Source: Nitrospira sp. (GTDB taxonomy: Bacteria > Nitrospirota > Nitrospiria > Nitrospirales > Nitrospiraceae). From it: 64,000 nucleotides of DNA. Both the position numbers and the translations under genes were made by a program. The notes beneath the pieces are model-generated. The model was given only the letters and a program-made list of their open reading frames with translations, had not been told where the DNA came from and ran no database searches. Shown here piece after piece: positions 18,884-32,101 of this stretch (position 1 is its first letter; each line of letters opens with the position of its first letter). Location: contig CP092081.1 of the NCBI GenBank assembly GCA_022226935.1, positions 1,994,416-2,058,415 on the forward strand. Direction: 5' to 3'.

Positions 18884-19136
18884 AAATTCCCTTCCGTTTT
18901 TCTCAGGGAAGACGCAAGAGAAGTGCCGTTTACACTTCGAGTAGAAATGTGACGATGGCGGACCTGGTACTGTTCAATCCGTCCGCAGATCACCAATGTT
19001 GGGGCATTATGCAACAGAATGCAGGAGCGGTTTGCGGCAGGACGCCCCTTGACCGCATGGGATTGCGGCCTTTAGTCTGTGCCCGCGGGGGTCAGGGAGG
19101 CTGGTGGTGCGGGCAGGAGCGAGTGAGGGACGAGGT

Positions 19137-23234: not shown

Positions 23235-23466
23235 CGGCCGCCTTTGCCTTCCCCGCTTGTCAGGACAATGCCAGAAGCACGTCGTGTCCTGGCTGTAGCG
23301 CTTCGGGGCAATCTGTCTCGGAGTGTGGGGTCTTTCTCACCAACGTCGCGAATATCCCGCTGCTGTTTGTAAATTCCTGCACCACGAAATTGTTCATGAA
23401 CGCAAGGTGTTCTCTCCGATGCGGCCTGCGGCGGCATGGCACATAGTTTGCGAAAGCTGCCTTGTC

Positions 23467-23898: not shown

Positions 23899-24037
23899 AG
23901 TCCCGACTGGACGGGCGTTTGGGCTGATTGCCCCTCACCGGGGAGGGTTGTCTTCCCCCTCCTGGGCGTAGTACATATAGGGCCCGTATTGTGAAGAAAG
24001 GCCCTGCTTGGTTCATTCTGATAGAAGGAGTGATGAG

Positions 24038-25441
24038 ATGGCCGGATCTCACGCACCAGCAACATCCCTTTCTCCTTTCGCCGACCCCATCCTTGCCGCT
24101 CGTTTGGAAGCACTGAGACAGTTAGCGGGAGGACTGACTGATCGCGTCGCCGTCATGGACCGCGACCTCAATGTGGTCTACGCGAACGATGCGGCCTGGA
24201 CGAGGGAAGGAGAGAATCTCTCTGCCAGCAAACCGGCCAAATGTTATCAAGCATTTGTTCAGATGGAAGATCCCTGCGGCACCTGTCCCGCCGAATCGGT
24301 ATTTGAGACGCGTGAAGTTCGTACCGTGGCCTGTAACAGCTCGGGCGATGGGACGGCCTGCGGCATGCATCAGGCCTTCCCGCTCATGTCTGCGTCGGGC
24401 GAAGTGGGGTCCGTGCTCGTCCTATTCCATAAAACATCGGCTCCTCACACTCTTCCCAAATCTCTCCATCCGCAGAAATTGGGCCGGTCGCGTCCGGAGC
24501 GGACCGAGTCGCGGTTGGGCGACCTCGTCGGCGCCAGTTCGGTCATGCATCAGTTGTTTGATCTGATTCGGCTCGTGGCCGATAGCTCGGCGACCGTCTT
24601 AATCCAAGGTGAAAGCGGGACGGGAAAAGAACTCGTGGCCCGAACCATTCACCAGACCAGCTACCGTCGCGACAAGCCGTTTGTGGTGGTGGACTGCGGC
24701 GCCCTCCCCGAGACGTTGCTGGAGAGTGAACTCTTCGGCCATGTCAAAGGCGCGTTCACCGGTGCTTCCGGGGCCAAGCCCGGTCTGTTTGAAGAGGCCG
24801 ACGGCGGCACCATTTTCCTGGATGAGATTGCGGACACCTCTCCGACATTTCAGGCGAAACTGCTGCGGGTTCTGCAGGAAGGCGAGATCAAGCGAGTCGG
24901 CGGGACTCAGCCCATTAAGATCGATGTCCGTGTCATTTCAGCCACAAACAAGGATCTGACCGATCTCGTCAAGGCGAAGGCCTTTCGGCAAGATCTGTAT
25001 TATCGGCTCGCCGTCTTGCCTGTGCACTTGTCTCCACTGCGAGAGCGGAGAGCGGATATTCCGCTCCTGGTAAAAAAGTTCATCGCGGATTCATGCCAAC
25101 GGCATCGGCAAGAGCTTCGTCAAGTGAGCGAAGAGGCCATGCGTGCCTTGACCGCTGCACCCTGGCAGGGAAATGTGCGCGAGCTACAGCACTACATCGA
25201 GCGTGCGGTCGTCACCACCACGCATGCGGAATTGACCTGTGCGGATTTGGTGGCATTGGGATCCCATGTGGAGCCGGCTGACCTGCGTACAGTTGGGCGG
25301 GATGCGGCCAAGCAGGCTGAACGGGCACGGATTCTTCAGGCCTTGCAGCAGACGTCTGGAAACAGGATGAAGGCGGCTCGTCTCCTGAAGATCAGTCGAG
25401 CCAGCCTCTATAATAAACTTCACGACTTCGGCATTCGGTAG
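24038..25441 (+). CDS. sigma-54 activator with Cys-bearing N-terminal PAS domain
   Basis: A 467-residue bacterial enhancer-binding protein. It has no receiver; the N-terminal PAS-like domain (about 20-130) has cysteines at 69, 80, 83, 99 and 108, including CGTC, consistent with metal or redox sensing. The AAA+ domain (about 160-390) has Walker A GESGTGKE, an intact GAFTGA loop and FLDEIA, and the C-terminal Fis-type helix-turn-helix ends [15 protein letters not shown] 24038 follows AAGGAG by seven bases. The nearest downstream transcription unit is the giant multicopper oxidase, whose upstream region has a sigma-54 promoter match; I infer that it is the target. Confidence 0.92.
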
Positions 25442-25485: not shown

Positions 25486-25627
25486 TCATCCCAATCCCTT
25501 CAGAACCAGTTCAAGCTTCTTCTTCGCTGCCTGTTTGCGGCGATCATTGTCCCATATCGCCACAAAACCAAACGGATCGTCGTCCAGCAAATTGGACAGT
25601 CTAAGTAGTTGAATTTTCTTTGCTCAT
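25486..25627 (-). pseudogene. small frameshifted reading frame (about 45 codons)
   Basis: On the minus strand a frame ending at 25486 encodes a protein-like string including NLLDDDPFGFVAIWDN and a Lys-rich tail (KQAAKKKLELVLKGLG). It has no start of its own. An ATG at 25627 with GAGGT before it runs into a stop after eight codons, but one single-base shift joins it to the longer frame (142 bases, one more than a multiple of three). This looks like a decayed small gene. The family is unknown to me. Confidence 0.4.
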
Positions 25628-25809
25628 ATCGACCTCGCTGTCATCTGTCTAATCGCTTGGAAAAACTGTGGCGTTTCACGTCGCTTCAATTCTTCTGACG
25701 CGATGAGGTAACTAACTGAAAACATAAACACATTTTGCCGCACAAGGTATCCACCCGGTGGGGGCACATCAATTGCGATGTTGGGCAGTGCTGGTGAAGG
25801 TGCGGGTGA
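25624..25809 (-). pseudogene. remnant reading frame without start codon
   Basis: An open minus-strand frame of 61 codons ends in TGA at 25624-25626, overlapping by four bases (ATGA) the start of the frameshifted small frame. Its C-terminal part (EELKRRETPQFFQAIRQM) reads like protein. The 5' side is cut by a stop at 25810-25812, with no suitable start. Together the pair resembles the relic of a two-gene operon. The overlap with the predicted sigma-54 promoter weakens either call, since one may be coincidence. Confidence 0.3.
25762..25777 (+). promoter_or_regulatory. predicted sigma-54 promoter for the multicopper oxidase
   Basis: GGGCAC, five bases, TTGCG: the invariant GG (25763-25764) and GC (25775-25776) are exactly ten bases apart, as in the consensus TGGCAC-N5-TTGCA. 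The transcript would start near 25788, leaving a leader of about 225 bases before ATG 26015. It lies 321 bases after the stop of a sigma-54 activator gene. Confidence 0.6.
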
Positions 25810-26014
25810 TTAGGACCGGCCTCCGAATGACCTGCTCCCTCGAACTCTGAGGACATCCTTCACCAGCCCTTTTTCCCTTTGGAGCGTTTCGTGGGGGGAA
25901 GGATGGAGAGGCCGGAGTAGCCGGGGTCCTGCCTGACGGAGGCCGGTCACACGACCACGTTTTTTAACCACTCCCGCGGAAGGGCGCGGGATTATTAAGG
26001 AGGGAGGCCGACAT

Positions 26015-29000
26015 ATGAGGTCTTCAGTGCAGTCAAAGCGCAGGCGCATCAGTCGCAAAGCGATGCTGAGCCTGCAGGCGGCGCTGCTCTCGGGCAGTTT
26101 GCTCGCGGCGCCGTGGGTGTTTGCAGCCGGGCCAGGGGATCAGTCGCATGAGGGACATGCGACGCCGGTTGCCATGCCTGGTTGGACCCAGACCCTCAAG
26201 GGTCAGACCGTGGTGGAAAACGCCATGGAGGGTCGTGCCGGGAACGCAGAAAAGATGGAAATGCAGCACCACCGCCTGATGGAGAAGTTGGAAGAGCAGG
26301 CGGGTAAAGATGCCAAGGCCCAGCAGACGTCCGGTGCATTCAACGAAATGTCGATGATGCACCAGTACATGGGCCAGGACGGAAGCAGTTTCTTGCTGGC
26401 GTCCGATTCATCGAAGGGTGAGCCGGTCATGACGTCGGGCGGTAAATGTCCCGCCAATGCGCCGGTCAAAAAGTACGATGTGTCGATGATCAACATCGAA
26501 ATCAGCTTGAACCGGTGGCTGGACTTCTATCCCGGGTATATGTACGTCCATACTGCGGATATCGACAAGGCTCGCGCCGAGGAAACCAAGAACAAGGAAG
26601 CGCGCGAAAAAGACGGCTTCGATCCTGGGGCGGTCACAACCGGCAACCAAGGCGATGTCATTCAACCGTTGGTGCTCCGTGCCAACCAGGGCGACTGCGT
26701 CAAGATGACGCTGCGCAATCAGATGGAAGGCGAGGATGGCAGCTTGGTCATCCAGGCTTCCAGCATGATTGTGAGCTCGACCGGTAAGCCTGCCACGACG
26801 ACGAACCCGGATACGGTCGTATCCCCGGGCAAGGCGCAGGAGTTCGAATGGTACATCCATCCGAACATGCAGGAAGGTGTGCGTCAGTTCCACTCCTGGA
26901 GCCATGATCGCGAGTTGACGGTGCTGGGTCTTTTCGGCGCCTTCATCGTCGAACCCAAGGGCTCCAAGTACCTCGATCCGCTCGGTACGGGCGCCGCGCC
27001 TGATACCAACAGCGGATGGCAGGTCATGATCGACAACGGGTCCGGACCGGACTTCCGCGAGTTCGTGTTGTTCTATCACGAGATCGGCGACGAAGCCTTC
27101 CGGCCGCTGAACAAGAAGGGTGACTTCTTGCCGCAGCGCGATCCGTTGACCGATGCGTATCGGCCGGGTGGCCGCGCGATCAACTATCGCAGCGAGCCGT
27201 TCGGCATCGATCAGATGCATTTGCAGCATGAATATTTCGGCTTCGAAGATGAGTCGCTGGCCTACAGCGCCTACACCTTCGGTGACCCTCCCACCACGGT
27301 CGCCCGCGGCTACCTCGGTGATCCGGTCAAGTGGCGGTTGGTCCATGGTGGATCCGAAGTGTTCCACTCCCACCATCCCCACAGCGGAACCATCCGTTGG
27401 CAGCGCAGCCCGCGTGCCGATCAGGAAGAGCATTGGTACAAGGGTCAGGACGGTCCGGTGAAATATCCGGTGGTCCGCACGAAGTCGGATCGAGTCGACG
27501 TGGAAGTCGTCGGTCCCTCTGAGGCCCTTGACCTGGAGCCGGAGTGCGGCGGCGGTGGCTGTCAGCACCTGGCCGGCGAATTCCTCTATCACTGCCACGT
27601 CGCGCACCACTATGTGGCGGGCATGTGGGGGTACGGCCGGTTCTACAATACATTGCAGGTCGGCAATGCGCACACCGACACGATGCCGGATATGCGCGAA
27701 TTGCCCGATCGTTTGGGCCGCATGAAGCAGGGTGTCTCGTCCGATAAGTTGATCGGTACCACGGTCGACTGGTTCGGCAAGACCTTCAAGATCGTCGATA
27801 AGAGCCAGAAGACGAACTGGAAGTCCGATCCTGTGATCGTGAACATCAAGGATTGGGTCGAGATGTTTGTGCCAGCCCAGGGTCAACCGGGCCACACCAA
27901 CGATGAGAAGGGCCAGATCATGGCCTACGATTCGACGGTGTGGGACTGGAAGTGGGACGGCAACATCGCCCGCGGCGAGCGGGAGAGCACTGCTCCGAAT
28001 CCGAAGTATGCCTGGGCCGCCAAGTGGGACGACAGCACCAGACCGGCAATCCTGTTCGATCCGACGACAGGAAAAATGGCCTGGCCGTTGTTCAAGCCGC
28101 ACTTCGGCAAGCGTGTGCCGTTCTCGGCGAACCACAGTGGTGCGCCATGGTTGGAGCCGATTCACCAGGATGCAAACGGTGAACGGACCTCCGAACCGGC
28201 GATGCCGGGCGAACAGGGTCGTTGGAGCCTGTGCCCTGACAATGCCAATCGGAAGCATTACAACATTCACTTTGTCCGCATGCCGATCACCCTTGCTAAG
28301 AAGCAGGGGAAAGAGCCGGCCATGGTGGACAAGGATGGTCTGATCTACGTCCTTCACGAAGAAGAGCGTTTGACCAGAGCCAATGACGATCTGAAACTGC
28401 CCGCCGTCATCCGCGCCAACGTGTATGACTGCGTGGACTTGTTGTTGACCAGCGAATGGGACGACGACGATTACACGAATTTCCAGTCGTCCAAGATCAA
28501 CATCCATCCCCACTTCTTCCAGTTCGACACCGGCAATTCCGACGGTGTCATCTCCGGGATGGAGTACGAAATGTCGGTTCGGCCATTCACCATGTGGGGC
28601 AAGAAGACCAAGCATGGGTTGCCGGCACCGATGGTTGCGAAGCTGACCGGCGAAGTCAAAGCCGGTGCTTCCTCCATCAAGATCCAGATGGCGCCCGGCG
28701 CCACCGCCTTCCACGTCAACACCGAGTTGATGGTGGGTATGGATTGTTTGGAGAAGGGCAACGATCCTGCAGCGTCATTGCCGCGGGATAAGAGCTGTCA
28801 GGAAGTCGCCCGCGTCAAGGAAATCAAGGGCGATGTCGTCACGTTCTTCAAGCCGCTGAAGCACCATCACCCGGCGGGCGATCTCGTGTCGCCGGAGTTT
28901 GTGCGGTATCGGTGGTGGGTGGACGTGGATATGGGTACGGTGTTCTGGCATGACCACGCGTTCGGCGCGACGACCTGGCCCCATGGCGGGTTCGGCGTGA

Positions 29001-30952
29001 CGATCGTGGAGCCATTCGGATCGACCTACCATGATCCAAAGAACGGCAAGTTGGTGTATAGCGGTCCGATCGCGGACATTCACAGCAACGAGCCGATCGG
29101 TGCCGGTGTCAGCGGCAGCTTCCGTGAGTTGATGGTCTCCATCCACGACACGGTGCCGCACACCGTCAACGTCATCGAAGCTGGCAATCCTCCGGGACAG
29201 CCGATCGAAGTAGCGTTGGAAGCAGGAAAAACGGTGTCCTTCCAGATGCCGGACAAGATCCTGAATGCGCCGAACAAGTACATCAACGGCGGGACGCACA
29301 CGACCGGTAGCGGGTTCAACTTCCGCGCGGCTCCGTTTGCGCAACGCCTGTCCAACAACCCGGATACCTCGAAGCTGTTCAGCAGCGCGATCCACGGTGA
29401 TCCGGGCACCCCGCTCCTGCGGGCGTACACGGGCGACACCATGGTGTTCCGCCTGCTGCATCAGTTGATGAACGAATCCCATGTCTGGACGATCGCCGGA
29501 CATACCTTCCTCACGGAGCGGTATGCACCGGATGCCAATCGGAAGAACTCGATTCACGTCGGGATCGCCGAGCGGTATGACCTCGTGACCAAGGCAGGTG
29601 GATTCCAGGGTATGCCGGGTGACTACATCCACTTCAACGGCAGAACGTCACACTTCGCCGAAGGTGGATGGGGCATCATCCGCGTGCTCGATAAGGAAAC
29701 GGCAGACTTGAAGCCGCTGCCCCGGGGAACGAATCCTCTCGGGATTCCGGCGACTCCAAACTCTGTCTGTCCGTCGGACGCCCCGGTGAAGAGCTTCAAC
29801 GTCGTGGCGTTGGATCGCCCGATGAAGCTCAATCCGAAGGCCCCGGATGCGATCGAAGTGGACTTCGAGCGGAAGATCGAAATGACCATGCCGGAAGGCA
29901 AGATCTTCGCGCTGGAGGAAGAAGCCGCGACCGTGGCGGGCAACGTGATGCCGAATCCGCTCACGCTGCGCGCGAATCTGGGCGATTGCATCAAGGTGAA
30001 TCTGAAGAACAAGATGAAGGCAAGCCGGGCGTCGTTCTTTGCGCCGGGCCTGGCCTTCGATCCGAAAGACAGCCAGGGCTTGAACGTCGGTAACAATGCC
30101 GGCGATCAGACCGTGGCTCCGGGCGAGAGCCGCACCTATACCTACTACGCGCATCCTTCCAATAAGGAAACGACGTCGTTGGTGTGGGACGGCGGGAACA
30201 TCGTCGTCAATCCGCGCAACGGATTGTACGGCGCGATCGTCATCGGTCCGAAGGGATCGCAGTATCGTGATCCTATCACCGGTGCCGATGTGTCACAGAA
30301 GAACACATGGCGGGCCGACGTCATCGTCGACACCACCTTGTCTGAAAATGCCGGAAAGCGGAACTATCGTGACGTGGCCCTCTTCTTCCAAGATGAGGAC
30401 AACATCATCGGAACCGCCTTCATGCCCTATGTGCAGAACGTGGCCGGTTTGACGTCGGTGAACTACCGCGCTGAACCGTACAAGTTCCGCGAAGAACAGG
30501 GCTGCTCCTTGGGCAAAATCTTCCAGCCTTGCGCGGTCGATAAGCCCGAAGATCCCGTCACGCCTCTGATCGAGGCGCACGCGGGTGACGCGCTCCGGAT
30601 CCATGTGATCGGAGCGAACAGCGAGCAGAACGGCATGTTCAGCGTCGAGGGCCACGAATGGCCGATCGAGCCGTACATGGCGGGTGCCGACATGATCAGC
30701 GTGGTGGAGTACGCCGGGTCTGAGATCCTCGATGTCTTCATCCGTGGCGGTGCGGGCGGACCGTATCGTCAGGTGGGTGACTTCGTGTGGTCGAATGCAC
30801 GGCTGCCCTACACGCAGTCGGGACAGTGGGGCTATCTGCGCGTGTTGCCGACCGGCGATTCGCGAATTCAGCCTCTCAGCGCAAGTGGTGCAGGTGCACG
30901 TCAAGCCGACGTACAGCCTGAGCCGCAGGCGATTCCAACTGCCATGAAGTAA
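26015..30952 (+). CDS. giant secreted multicopper oxidase with three internal repeats
   Basis: A 1645-residue exported protein; the N-terminus has a Tat-like basic stretch (RRRISRK), a hydrophobic core and a likely AFA-type cleavage near residue 38. Copper-site motifs: HSWSH at 293-297, HSHHPHS at 451-457, HCHVAHHYVAGM at 526-537 (Cys and His of type 1 and type 2/3 sites with axial Met), HPH at 831-833 and WHDH at 978-981. Three repeats start at CP-x2-A (Cys 145, 740, 1252), each with a second Cys in an RAN-x2-DC motif (228, 806, 1325). The third repeat has lost the histidines. Ordinary laccases have about 500 residues; Mn-oxidising MnxG-type proteins are comparably large. The substrate is unknown; Mn(II), Fe(II), Cu(I) or organics are possible. 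Confidence 0.88.
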   Translation: MRSSVQSKRRRISRKAMLSLQAALLSGSLLAAPWVFAAGPGDQSHEGHATPVAMPGWTQTLKGQTVVENAMEGRAGNAEKMEMQHHRLMEKLEEQAGKDAKAQQTSGAFNEMSMMHQYMGQDGSSFLLASDSSKGEPVMTSGGKCPANAPVKKYDVSMINIEISLNRWLDFYPGYMYVHTADIDKARAEETKNKEAREKDGFDPGAVTTGNQGDVIQPLVLRANQGDCVKMTLRNQMEGEDGSLVIQASSMIVSSTGKPATTTNPDTVVSPGKAQEFEWYIHPNMQEGVRQFHSWSHDRELTVLGLFGAFIVEPKGSKYLDPLGTGAAPDTNSGWQVMIDNGSGPDFREFVLFYHEIGDEAFRPLNKKGDFLPQRDPLTDAYRPGGRAINYRSEPFGIDQMHLQHEYFGFEDESLAYSAYTFGDPPTTVARGYLGDPVKWRLVHGGSEVFHSHHPHSGTIRWQRSPRADQEEHWYKGQDGPVKYPVVRTKSDRVDVEVVGPSEALDLEPECGGGGCQHLAGEFLYHCHVAHHYVAGMWGYGRFYNTLQVGNAHTDTMPDMRELPDRLGRMKQGVSSDKLIGTTVDWFGKTFKIVDKSQKTNWKSDPVIVNIKDWVEMFVPAQGQPGHTNDEKGQIMAYDSTVWDWKWDGNIARGERESTAPNPKYAWAAKWDDSTRPAILFDPTTGKMAWPLFKPHFGKRVPFSANHSGAPWLEPIHQDANGERTSEPAMPGEQGRWSLCPDNANRKHYNIHFVRMPITLAKKQGKEPAMVDKDGLIYVLHEEERLTRANDDLKLPAVIRANVYDCVDLLLTSEWDDDDYTNFQSSKINIHPHFFQFDTGNSDGVISGMEYEMSVRPFTMWGKKTKHGLPAPMVAKLTGEVKAGASSIKIQMAPGATAFHVNTELMVGMDCLEKGNDPAASLPRDKSCQEVARVKEIKGDVVTFFKPLKHHHPAGDLVSPEFVRYRWWVDVDMGTVFWHDHAFGATTWPHGGFGVTIVEPFGSTYHDPKNGKLVYSGPIADIHSNEPIGAGVSGSFRELMVSIHDTVPHTVNVIEAGNPPGQPIEVALEAGKTVSFQMPDKILNAPNKYINGGTHTTGSGFNFRAAPFAQRLSNNPDTSKLFSSAIHGDPGTPLLRAYTGDTMVFRLLHQLMNESHVWTIAGHTFLTERYAPDANRKNSIHVGIAERYDLVTKAGGFQGMPGDYIHFNGRTSHFAEGGWGIIRVLDKETADLKPLPRGTNPLGIPATPNSVCPSDAPVKSFNVVALDRPMKLNPKAPDAIEVDFERKIEMTMPEGKIFALEEEAATVAGNVMPNPLTLRANLGDCIKVNLKNKMKASRASFFAPGLAFDPKDSQGLNVGNNAGDQTVAPGESRTYTYYAHPSNKETTSLVWDGGNIVVNPRNGLYGAIVIGPKGSQYRDPITGADVSQKNTWRADVIVDTTLSENAGKRNYRDVALFFQDEDNIIGTAFMPYVQNVAGLTSVNYRAEPYKFREEQGCSLGKIFQPCAVDKPEDPVTPLIEAHAGDALRIHVIGANSEQNGMFSVEGHEWPIEPYMAGADMISVVEYAGSEILDVFIRGGAGGPYRQVGDFVWSNARLPYTQSGQWGYLRVLPTGDSRIQPLSASGAGARQADVQPEPQAIPTAMK

Positions 30953-31022: not shown

Positions 31023-31111
31023 GAGGTTTGAGAGAGGAATTCAGTGATGGGATTTTTGTATGATCGATGATGTGTCGAGCGTACATCAACCCATCACAGA
31101 GGAGGCCGGAC

Positions 31112-32101
31112 GTGACACTGGGTATCACAGCAAGGAATGAAGAGCAGCAGATGAAGCAACGGGTGTTCGGGGTGGTTTTGGGGCTGGCGACGGTCGTCGG
31201 TGCAGCCTGTTTCGCGAGCGGTCCTGTGTCAGCCTACGAAGAAGTCACCGTCTCCGATGGAGGGACGCTGACGGGAACCGTCAAGCTGGAAGGAGCCGTT
31301 CCGAAACCCAAGGGCTACAATCTGACCACGTTGCCTGATCCGTACTATTGCGGGCGAATTTCCGACGGAGAAGGCTGGCGCATTCTGCAGCCATTTAATG
31401 TCGGGCCGAAGGGGGAGTTTCGGGAAGTGGTCGTGTATCTCGAAGGGATCAATAAGGGGAAATCGTTCGCGGAAAAAGAAGTGCCGCAAATCGAAGCCAA
31501 GGACTGCCTGTTCCTTCCCTTTACGACCGTCGTACGTGACGACCAATCGGTGACCGTCGTCAATATGGATCCGGTCATGCACGATATTCAGGCCTATGAA
31601 ACGTCGAATTTGGGCGCGCGGGTCCTGTTCAACGTACCGCTGCCCATGAACCCGCAACACCCACGGAACTTCAAGGATCGCACCGAGGCCGGGATGTATC
31701 ACAAACACATGGCCGGTCCGCCGATGAAAGAGCTCGTGAAACTCAGCAAGGGCCGCAAGATTTTCGTCATGCAATGCGGGTTTCATGCGTACATGGAGAG
31801 CTGGGGCGTGGCGATTACCAATCCGTACTTCGCCAAGACGGATGAGCAGGGTCGATTCACCATGACCGATGTGCCGCCGGGCACCTACAAGTTGGTCGTC
31901 TGGCATCCCTATATCAGGACGGCCACGGAACAAACCGTCACTATTGGGCCTAAAGCAACTGTCGAAACGACGATGGGGGTTCCGGCGCCGACTGGGCGGC
32001 TGTACGCCAATGAGGTGTTGGACCACGCCTATACCCGGTACAACGTGACCGAGGAAGCGAAGAAGGAAATCGATCCCTTGCTCCAAAAGCAGGAGCATTG
32101 A
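31112..32101 (+). CDS. exported cupredoxin-like protein with carboxypeptidase-regulatory-like domain
   Basis: About 329 residues. The signal peptide (VFGVVLGLATVVGAACF, cleaved near VSA-YEE) is followed by a beta domain in which MHD and MQCGFHAYM form a His plus C-x2-H-x2-M set, the ligand pattern of type 1 (blue) copper. Then comes a carboxypeptidase-regulatory-like beta sandwich (GRFTMTDVPPGTYKLVVWHPY). GTG 31112 has GGAGG six bases upstream; ATG 31151 is the alternative. The position after the multicopper oxidase suggests it passes electrons to or from that enzyme. Related proteins are annotated only as regulatory-like or methylamine-utilisation proteins. Confidence 0.75.
   Translation: MTLGITARNEEQQMKQRVFGVVLGLATVVGAACFASGPVSAYEEVTVSDGGTLTGTVKLEGAVPKPKGYNLTTLPDPYYCGRISDGEGWRILQPFNVGPKGEFREVVVYLEGINKGKSFAEKEVPQIEAKDCLFLPFTTVVRDDQSVTVVNMDPVMHDIQAYETSNLGARVLFNVPLPMNPQHPRNFKDRTEAGMYHKHMAGPPMKELVKLSKGRKIFVMQCGFHAYMESWGVAITNPYFAKTDEQGRFTMTDVPPGTYKLVVWHPYIRTATEQTVTIGPKATVETTMGVPAPTGRLYANEVLDHAYTRYNVTEEAKKEIDPLLQKQEH

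Follow-up and report, generated by a model that had tools for sequence, protein, structure and literature searches.

What controls the gene for the giant multicopper oxidase of Nitrospira? These bacteria, a key nitrifying group, are major nitrite oxidisers as well as comammox organisms. A role of Nitrospira in manganese oxidation has been proposed, according to the accessible part of one report (PMC12070406). The window analysed here, a 64,000-nucleotide stretch of a Nitrospira chromosome (G000:C1:1994416-2058415), contains on the plus strand at 26015-30952 an ORF of 1645 aa with multicopper oxidase domains, and its closest named match (99%) is a protein of Candidatus Nitrospira defluvii. The ORF showed sequence kinship with MnxG (PDB 9bxa, E 3.3e-85) and missed the cut-off of the NCBIfam MnxG equivalog NF041487 (109.5 bits against the 3100 required); judged by its sequence, the oxidase is a distant relative of MnxG. 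Upstream on the same strand, 24008-25441 encodes a sigma-54 activator with an AAA+ region carrying GAFTGA, a Sigma54_activat domain and a Fis-type HTH, which is a candidate regulator. The sequence-only reading of this DNA had placed a sigma-54 promoter between the two genes. When the window was reread, the sequence and coordinates were as claimed: the -24/-12 element GGGCACATCAATTGCG lies at 25762-25777 (+), its GG occupying 25763-25764 and its GC, after a gap of ten bases, 25775-25776, and the ORF positions confirmed its location between the activator and oxidase ORFs. A genomic repeat or mobile element was rejected, since the genome contains the intergenic region upstream of the oxidase only once, apart from two short chance-level matches. 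For comparison, 80 related loci were fetched; A, C, and D below are our own labels for oxidase types, and our own scripts assigned the start codons as well as the types of leader (A, C, D; MCO-A, MCO-B).

A probable sigma-54 promoter and its upstream palindromes

In the window, the GGGCACATCAATTGCG motif occurred at the chance level (29 hits when at most 2 mismatches were allowed, 30.45 being expected from shuffles), and across the genome the pattern GGCAY-N5-TTGC had 96 occurrences and the reversed pattern 39. The significance of GG-N10-GC therefore derives from its conservation in relatives and not from the motif alone. GG-N10-GC was present at a fixed place in 96 of 109 distinct related upstream sequences. 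At 35-39 nt upstream of the loop in the RNA described below, it was found in 86/90 A-type, 10/10 C-type, and 0/9 D-type sequences against 10% in shuffles, where the shuffles are mononucleotide and the sequences are related, so that the counts are not independent. Two of the A-type misses (L025 and L164) have the element with its first G changed, and the other two (L178 and L184) represent other oxidase types that were typed A in this count although L184 is D-like. A set of 62 representatives sharing less than 60% identity in the adjacent upstream DNA gave 1.8-2.0 bits for the GG, CA, and TTGC columns and an average of 0.13 bits for the upstream flank. Close orthologues of the oxidase likewise kept the promoter element while the DNA upstream of it had diverged. 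In the paralogue clade of about 66%, no GG-N10-GC was found at a constant place, and the few scattered matches lay at varying distances.

At sigma-54 promoters, transcription begins about 12 nt downstream of the -12 GC. Counting 12 nt from the C of the -12 GC gives a predicted transcription start at 25788 (+), which nearly coincides with the onset of the conserved RNA, a block that begins about 14 nt after the same C.

Upstream of the element are two enhancer-like palindromes of the form TGTCYA-N6-TRGACA, both conserved in relatives: UAS1 (CGTCCAGCAAATTGGACA, 25581-25598, +) and UAS2 (TGTCTAATCGCTTGGAAA, 25646-25663, +). No other site in the 64 kb window comes within 1 mismatch of the degenerate form; shuffles gave an expectation of 0.3. 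Among the 46 listed loci with GG-N10-GC (L025 and L031, which are without the element, were left out), a UAS1 copy with up to 3 mismatches was present at about -176 to -194 from the -24 GG in all 46, and a UAS2 copy by the same threshold at -135 to -85 in 38 (shuffled mean, 5.4). In relatives the two palindromes lie about 183 and 116 bp upstream of the -24 GG, ~66 bp apart, which places the pair within the ~80-200 bp upstream where activator sites of a sigma-54 promoter are expected. They also precede several, not all, of the C-type and sister-family promoters; none was found before L142 and L192. An additional activator motif near -55 was considered and rejected, since TAAC (18/46), GTTA (14/46), and TGT-N-ACA (8/46) were all near the shuffled frequencies; TAAC-N-GTTA occurred near -55 in 5/46 loci against 0.37 in shuffles.

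The genome encodes one sigma-54 (rpoN-type) gene, detected as the single match to PF04552 (193 bits), together with the GAFTGA activator. The sequence-only reading had named a scan of relatives for GG-N10-GC as a test that could overturn it, and the scan did not overturn it; position-locked conservation, the rpoN-type gene, the paired palindromes, and the coincidence of the predicted start with the RNA all support a sigma-54 promoter. A chance GG-N10-GC in intergenic DNA, with the oxidase transcribed from another promoter, would agree with the chance-level frequency of the motif in the window alone, but it is contradicted by the position-locked conservation amid unconserved flanks and by the paired palindromes, and we regard it as extremely improbable. 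The comparative evidence thus makes it very likely that 25762-25777 is an enhancer-dependent sigma-54 promoter.

The activator gene, accompanied by genes for a kinase and response regulators, lies upstream of the oxidase in many relatives. Several other relatives keep the promoter and the palindromes without the activator cassette in the fetched flank, some of them with long flanks. We infer that the adjacent activator (24008-25441) is the acting regulator of the oxidase promoter. A second sigma-54-like element, TGGCACATAGTTTGCG, is situated at 23437-23452 (+), upstream of the genes for the response regulator and the activator, and the strict GGCAY-N5-TTGC was found at a similar place in 16/21 loci, which suggests a sigma-54 cascade. 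Elsewhere in the window, CGGCACTTCTCTTGCG at 18913-18928 (-) is located just 5' of a minus-strand HlyD-like efflux gene.

A structured leader RNA downstream of the promoter element

The conserved block downstream of the promoter corresponds to a structured leader RNA of ~80 nt at 25790-25867 (+). It forms a three-stem junction with a highly conserved core, in which P1 (25790-25800 paired with 25857-25867) closes the inner hairpins P2 and P3. In an alignment of 39 sequences, 96.4% of the cells were paired and two-sided changes were observed in 11 of 24 pairs. A wider set of 78 rows (76 distinct), which was aligned to the RNA model and hence leans towards it, had 97.1% of the cells paired and covariation in 19 of 24 pairs, a value reached in 0 of 500 shuffles. 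The model matched the window at 25787-25881 with 78.4 bits. The whole leader of the window was only mildly more stable than its shuffles (folding z -1.63). The compensatory changes in the structure and the constant position before one gene family are those expected of a cis-regulatory leader RNA, and a giant oxidase gene was downstream of the RNA in every copy of which the following frame was read. These data leave little doubt that the leader RNA element is real.

The RNA model matched 26 of 29 genomes of the genus, although the match in G027 was weak and partial. Two of the three RNA-negative genomes (G009 and G015) contain oxidase fragments, and the third (G002) is broken into about 600 contigs and 66% complete; the absence of the RNA from these genomes therefore carries little weight. 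Among 295 sampled genomes of the phylum, the RNA was detected in 81, namely in 75/79 genomes of the same family, 6/18 of the sister family, and 0/198 others among the rows listed. Searches of Rfam gave no match at the strand and place of the RNA in the window at E up to 10 and none on the RNA of L145, L142, L190, and L180 at E up to 1, and a described Rfam family was accordingly rejected as the identity of the leader. No paper on the leader RNA was found in the literature searched, the coverage of which was partial.

D-type oxidase paralogues (L175-L185) have the RNA leader and lack the sigma-54 element as well as clear palindromes. The presence of the RNA without the promoter indicates that the RNA is separable from the promoter and is a unit of its own.

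Complementarity of the RNA loop to start sites

The RNA contains a near-invariant loop, GGACCGGCCTCCG, at 25813-25825 (+), which was invariant in 39 A1 rows and showed few variants in A2. The loop GGACCGGCCUCCG has a complement in the oxidase's extended Shine-Dalgarno sequence and in those of some operon partners. In the window, the oxidase site GGAGGCCG (26003-26010, +) is an 8/8 complement of the loop, and the gene after the oxidase has the extended site GGAGGCCGG at 31101-31109 (+) with a likely start at GTG 31112. For this gene, listed as 31067-32101, GTG 31112 is probably the true start rather than the listed ATG 31067. A mid-leader site, CGGAGGCCGGTC (25937-25948, +), is a 12/12 complement of the loop and a candidate competing partner; a mid-leader complement of at least 9 nt was found in 56/87 A-type, 4/10 C-type, and 0/10 D-type leaders, and the site is thus missing in many of them.

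A start region with a loop complement of at least 6 nt was present in 99 of 107 distinct leaders, a count in which some plainly miscalled starts (e.g. L012, L019, L032, L151) were retained. The heptamer GGAGGCC was found at the oxidase Shine-Dalgarno position in 75/87 A-type, 7/10 C-type, and 1/10 D-type leaders. Among neighbours bearing GGAGG, it was present in 17/47 cases for the next operon gene and in 11/20 for an FGE-type gene, and the extended site was found in 0/11 cases for FGE1, another FGE-type gene. Unassigned genes with GGAGG had GGAGGCC in 7 of 100 cases, at least 2 of these 7 being oxidases themselves. The 16S tail presumably has no match to the CCG extension, so that the extended Shine-Dalgarno sequence is not accounted for by ordinary pairing with the ribosome. 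It could be an inherited habit of the oxidase operon. The loop hardly varies, and covariation between loop and Shine-Dalgarno sequence therefore cannot be shown; the D-type leaders with a changed loop have Shine-Dalgarno sequences without compensation along their length.

The leader may instead be a ligand- or protein-sensing element that acts through its structure or through mRNA stability, downstream of a correctly assigned sigma-54 promoter and with an incidental Shine-Dalgarno match. The three-stem junction, the highly conserved core, the invariable position before one gene family, and the fact that the RNA is not tied to a single promoter type agree with such an element, but it leaves unexplained the start-region match of nearly all leaders and the rarity of that match in other genes. 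We consider a sensing element of this kind unlikely. Translational control by loop pairing, to which the conserved complementarity points, appears fairly probable.

Start sites of two other genes also fit the loop. The Shine-Dalgarno sequence of MCO-B (our label for a paralogous oxidase), GGAGGCCGGTCC, is a perfect 12/12 complement, whereas by eye the rest of the upstream DNA shows little conservation, and the start site of an IPT-domain gene has an 11-nt complement. The latter encodes an IPT-type exported protein of ~172 aa, and its start site GGAGGCCGGTCATG recurs across Nitrospira genomes (L098, L216, L217, L221, L227, L231, L235); the IPT label is our own reading of the sequence. Across 29 genomes, GGAGGCCGGTC-N0-4-ATG was matched 70 times and the reversed pattern 11 times, and of 30 loci that were read, 15 were MCO-B, 6 the IPT protein, and 9 neither. 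Model duplex energies with the loop were -30.2 for MCO-B, -28.4 for the IPT gene, -28.9 for the mid-leader site, and -19.2 for the oxidase's own site, compared with a mean of -12.4 (sd 4.3) for 42 window genes, the oxidase and the next gene included. Also by model, a hairpin within the loop must open before pairing at a cost of about 5.7 kcal/mol.

These perfect complements would be expected if the leader acted mainly in trans, as a released small RNA that silences MCO-B and the ~172 aa IPT-domain protein by pairing of 11-12 nt at their start sites. The exact sequence AGGAGGCCGGTCCATG was found in 48 of 295 genomes (40/79 of the same family, 8/18 of the sister family, and 0/198 others among the rows listed) and is thus confined to two families. 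It occurred in 44/81 RNA-positive against 4/214 RNA-negative genomes and, within the sister family, in 5/6 RNA-positive against 3/12 RNA-negative genomes. However, the exact site is also present in sister-family genomes without detected RNA (G146, G153, and G196) and in the RNA-negative MAGs L054, L070, and L084, whereas imperfect sites occur in the RNA-positive genomes L067 and L081-L083. The RNA-negative MAGs were mixed, some keeping the exact MCO-B site and others having an altered one, and a strict dependence of the MCO-B site on the presence of the RNA was rejected on this evidence. An intrinsic terminator after P1 was also rejected as a general feature, since a T-rich tail follows P1 in only 13 of 103 leaders, which indicates that intrinsic release is not general. 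The distribution of the site does not settle the matter in favour of a trans role. A mainly trans-acting leader is quite unlikely, and action in cis or across the operon is the simpler reading. A trans role added to the action in cis is conceivable though doubtful. The same holds for a family-specific riboregulator on the sigma-54 transcript whose loop, matched to an extended Shine-Dalgarno sequence common to the giant oxidases and some operon partners, tunes their translation in cis while it shuts down, in trans, the housekeeping paralogue and the IPT protein, an idea that we regard as tentative; if it is true, one promoter would swap the oxidase set of the cell.

The promoter, the palindromes, the RNA structure, and the complementarity are all conserved, and the explanation that we prefer combines them. 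Sigma-54 RNA polymerase would transcribe the oxidase operon from 25763-25776 after the activator, bound to the two TGTCYA-N6-TRGACA palindromes, had opened the promoter at the expense of ATP. The transcript would begin at about 25788, directly at the conserved three-stem RNA, and the loop GGACCGGCCUCCG would set translation, which would be off when the loop pairs with the ribosome-binding site and on when it pairs elsewhere. In this sequence of events, we infer the identity of the activator, the start site, the pairing, and the signal for pairing, the last of which may be a metal such as Mn or Cu, a guess made from the enzyme. We assign a probability of roughly 0.6 to this combination of a sigma-54 promoter with a leader RNA whose loop sets oxidase translation by Shine-Dalgarno pairing, which draws on genome comparison. 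With such a sigma-54 promoter and leader RNA before their MnxG-like oxidases, Nitrospira offer concrete experimental handles, namely a 5' end, a regulator, and a predicted pairing partner. If the loop pairing is true, the extended Shine-Dalgarno sequence marks a set of genes for one RNA.

Comparison with known regulatory systems

The oxidase promoter resembles sigma-54/bEBP promoters of the NtrC/NifA class in its GG-N10-GC, the inverted repeats upstream, the sigma-54 gene in the genome, and the neighbouring activator gene. Unlike in the proven cases of that class, the activator is here a candidate, and several relatives are without the neighbouring cassette in the fetched flank. The RNA resembles leader RNAs and riboswitches that hide a Shine-Dalgarno sequence, in that it is a covarying 5' leader of one gene family with a loop complementary to the ribosome-binding site. 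It differs from the known ones in that it has no Rfam match and its loop also fits the start sites of other genes. RsaE-like and CcsR-like small RNAs have C-rich anti-Shine-Dalgarno loops, and the CCUCC-type loop of the Nitrospira RNA could in principle block ribosome binding in the same manner, whereas the Nitrospira RNA, in contrast to these small RNAs, is attached to the oxidase gene in every copy read.

Sigma-54 regulators have been linked to the nxr genes of N. moscoviensis, as far as the accessible part of that report goes (PMC6606698). A close parallel to the promoter is found in the mnxG and mcoA genes of Pseudomonas (MnxS1/S2-MnxR, sigma-54), where an MnxG-related oxidase is likewise under predicted sigma-54 control (PMC11930936, PMC11409713, both in their accessible parts). 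The accessible text describes predicted IHF and sigma-54 sites in the mnxG and mcoA promoters (PMC11930936), and in Pseudomonas strain MS-1 an rpoN insertion abolished Mn oxidation, which was restored by complementation (PMC11409713, accessible part). The assertion of the sequence-only reading that such control is unusual for these enzymes is thus not supported, since the oxidase is MnxG-related and a sigma-54 promoter is predicted for Pseudomonas mnxG (PMC11930936). The Pseudomonas and Nitrospira enzymes are only distantly related and are likened here by sequence, and the accessible parts of the Pseudomonas reports mention no such leader RNA. On the strength of what these parts report on mnxG/mcoA and on rpoN in MS-1, an MnxG-like oxidase under sigma-54 control is not without precedent; what is new is the leader RNA.
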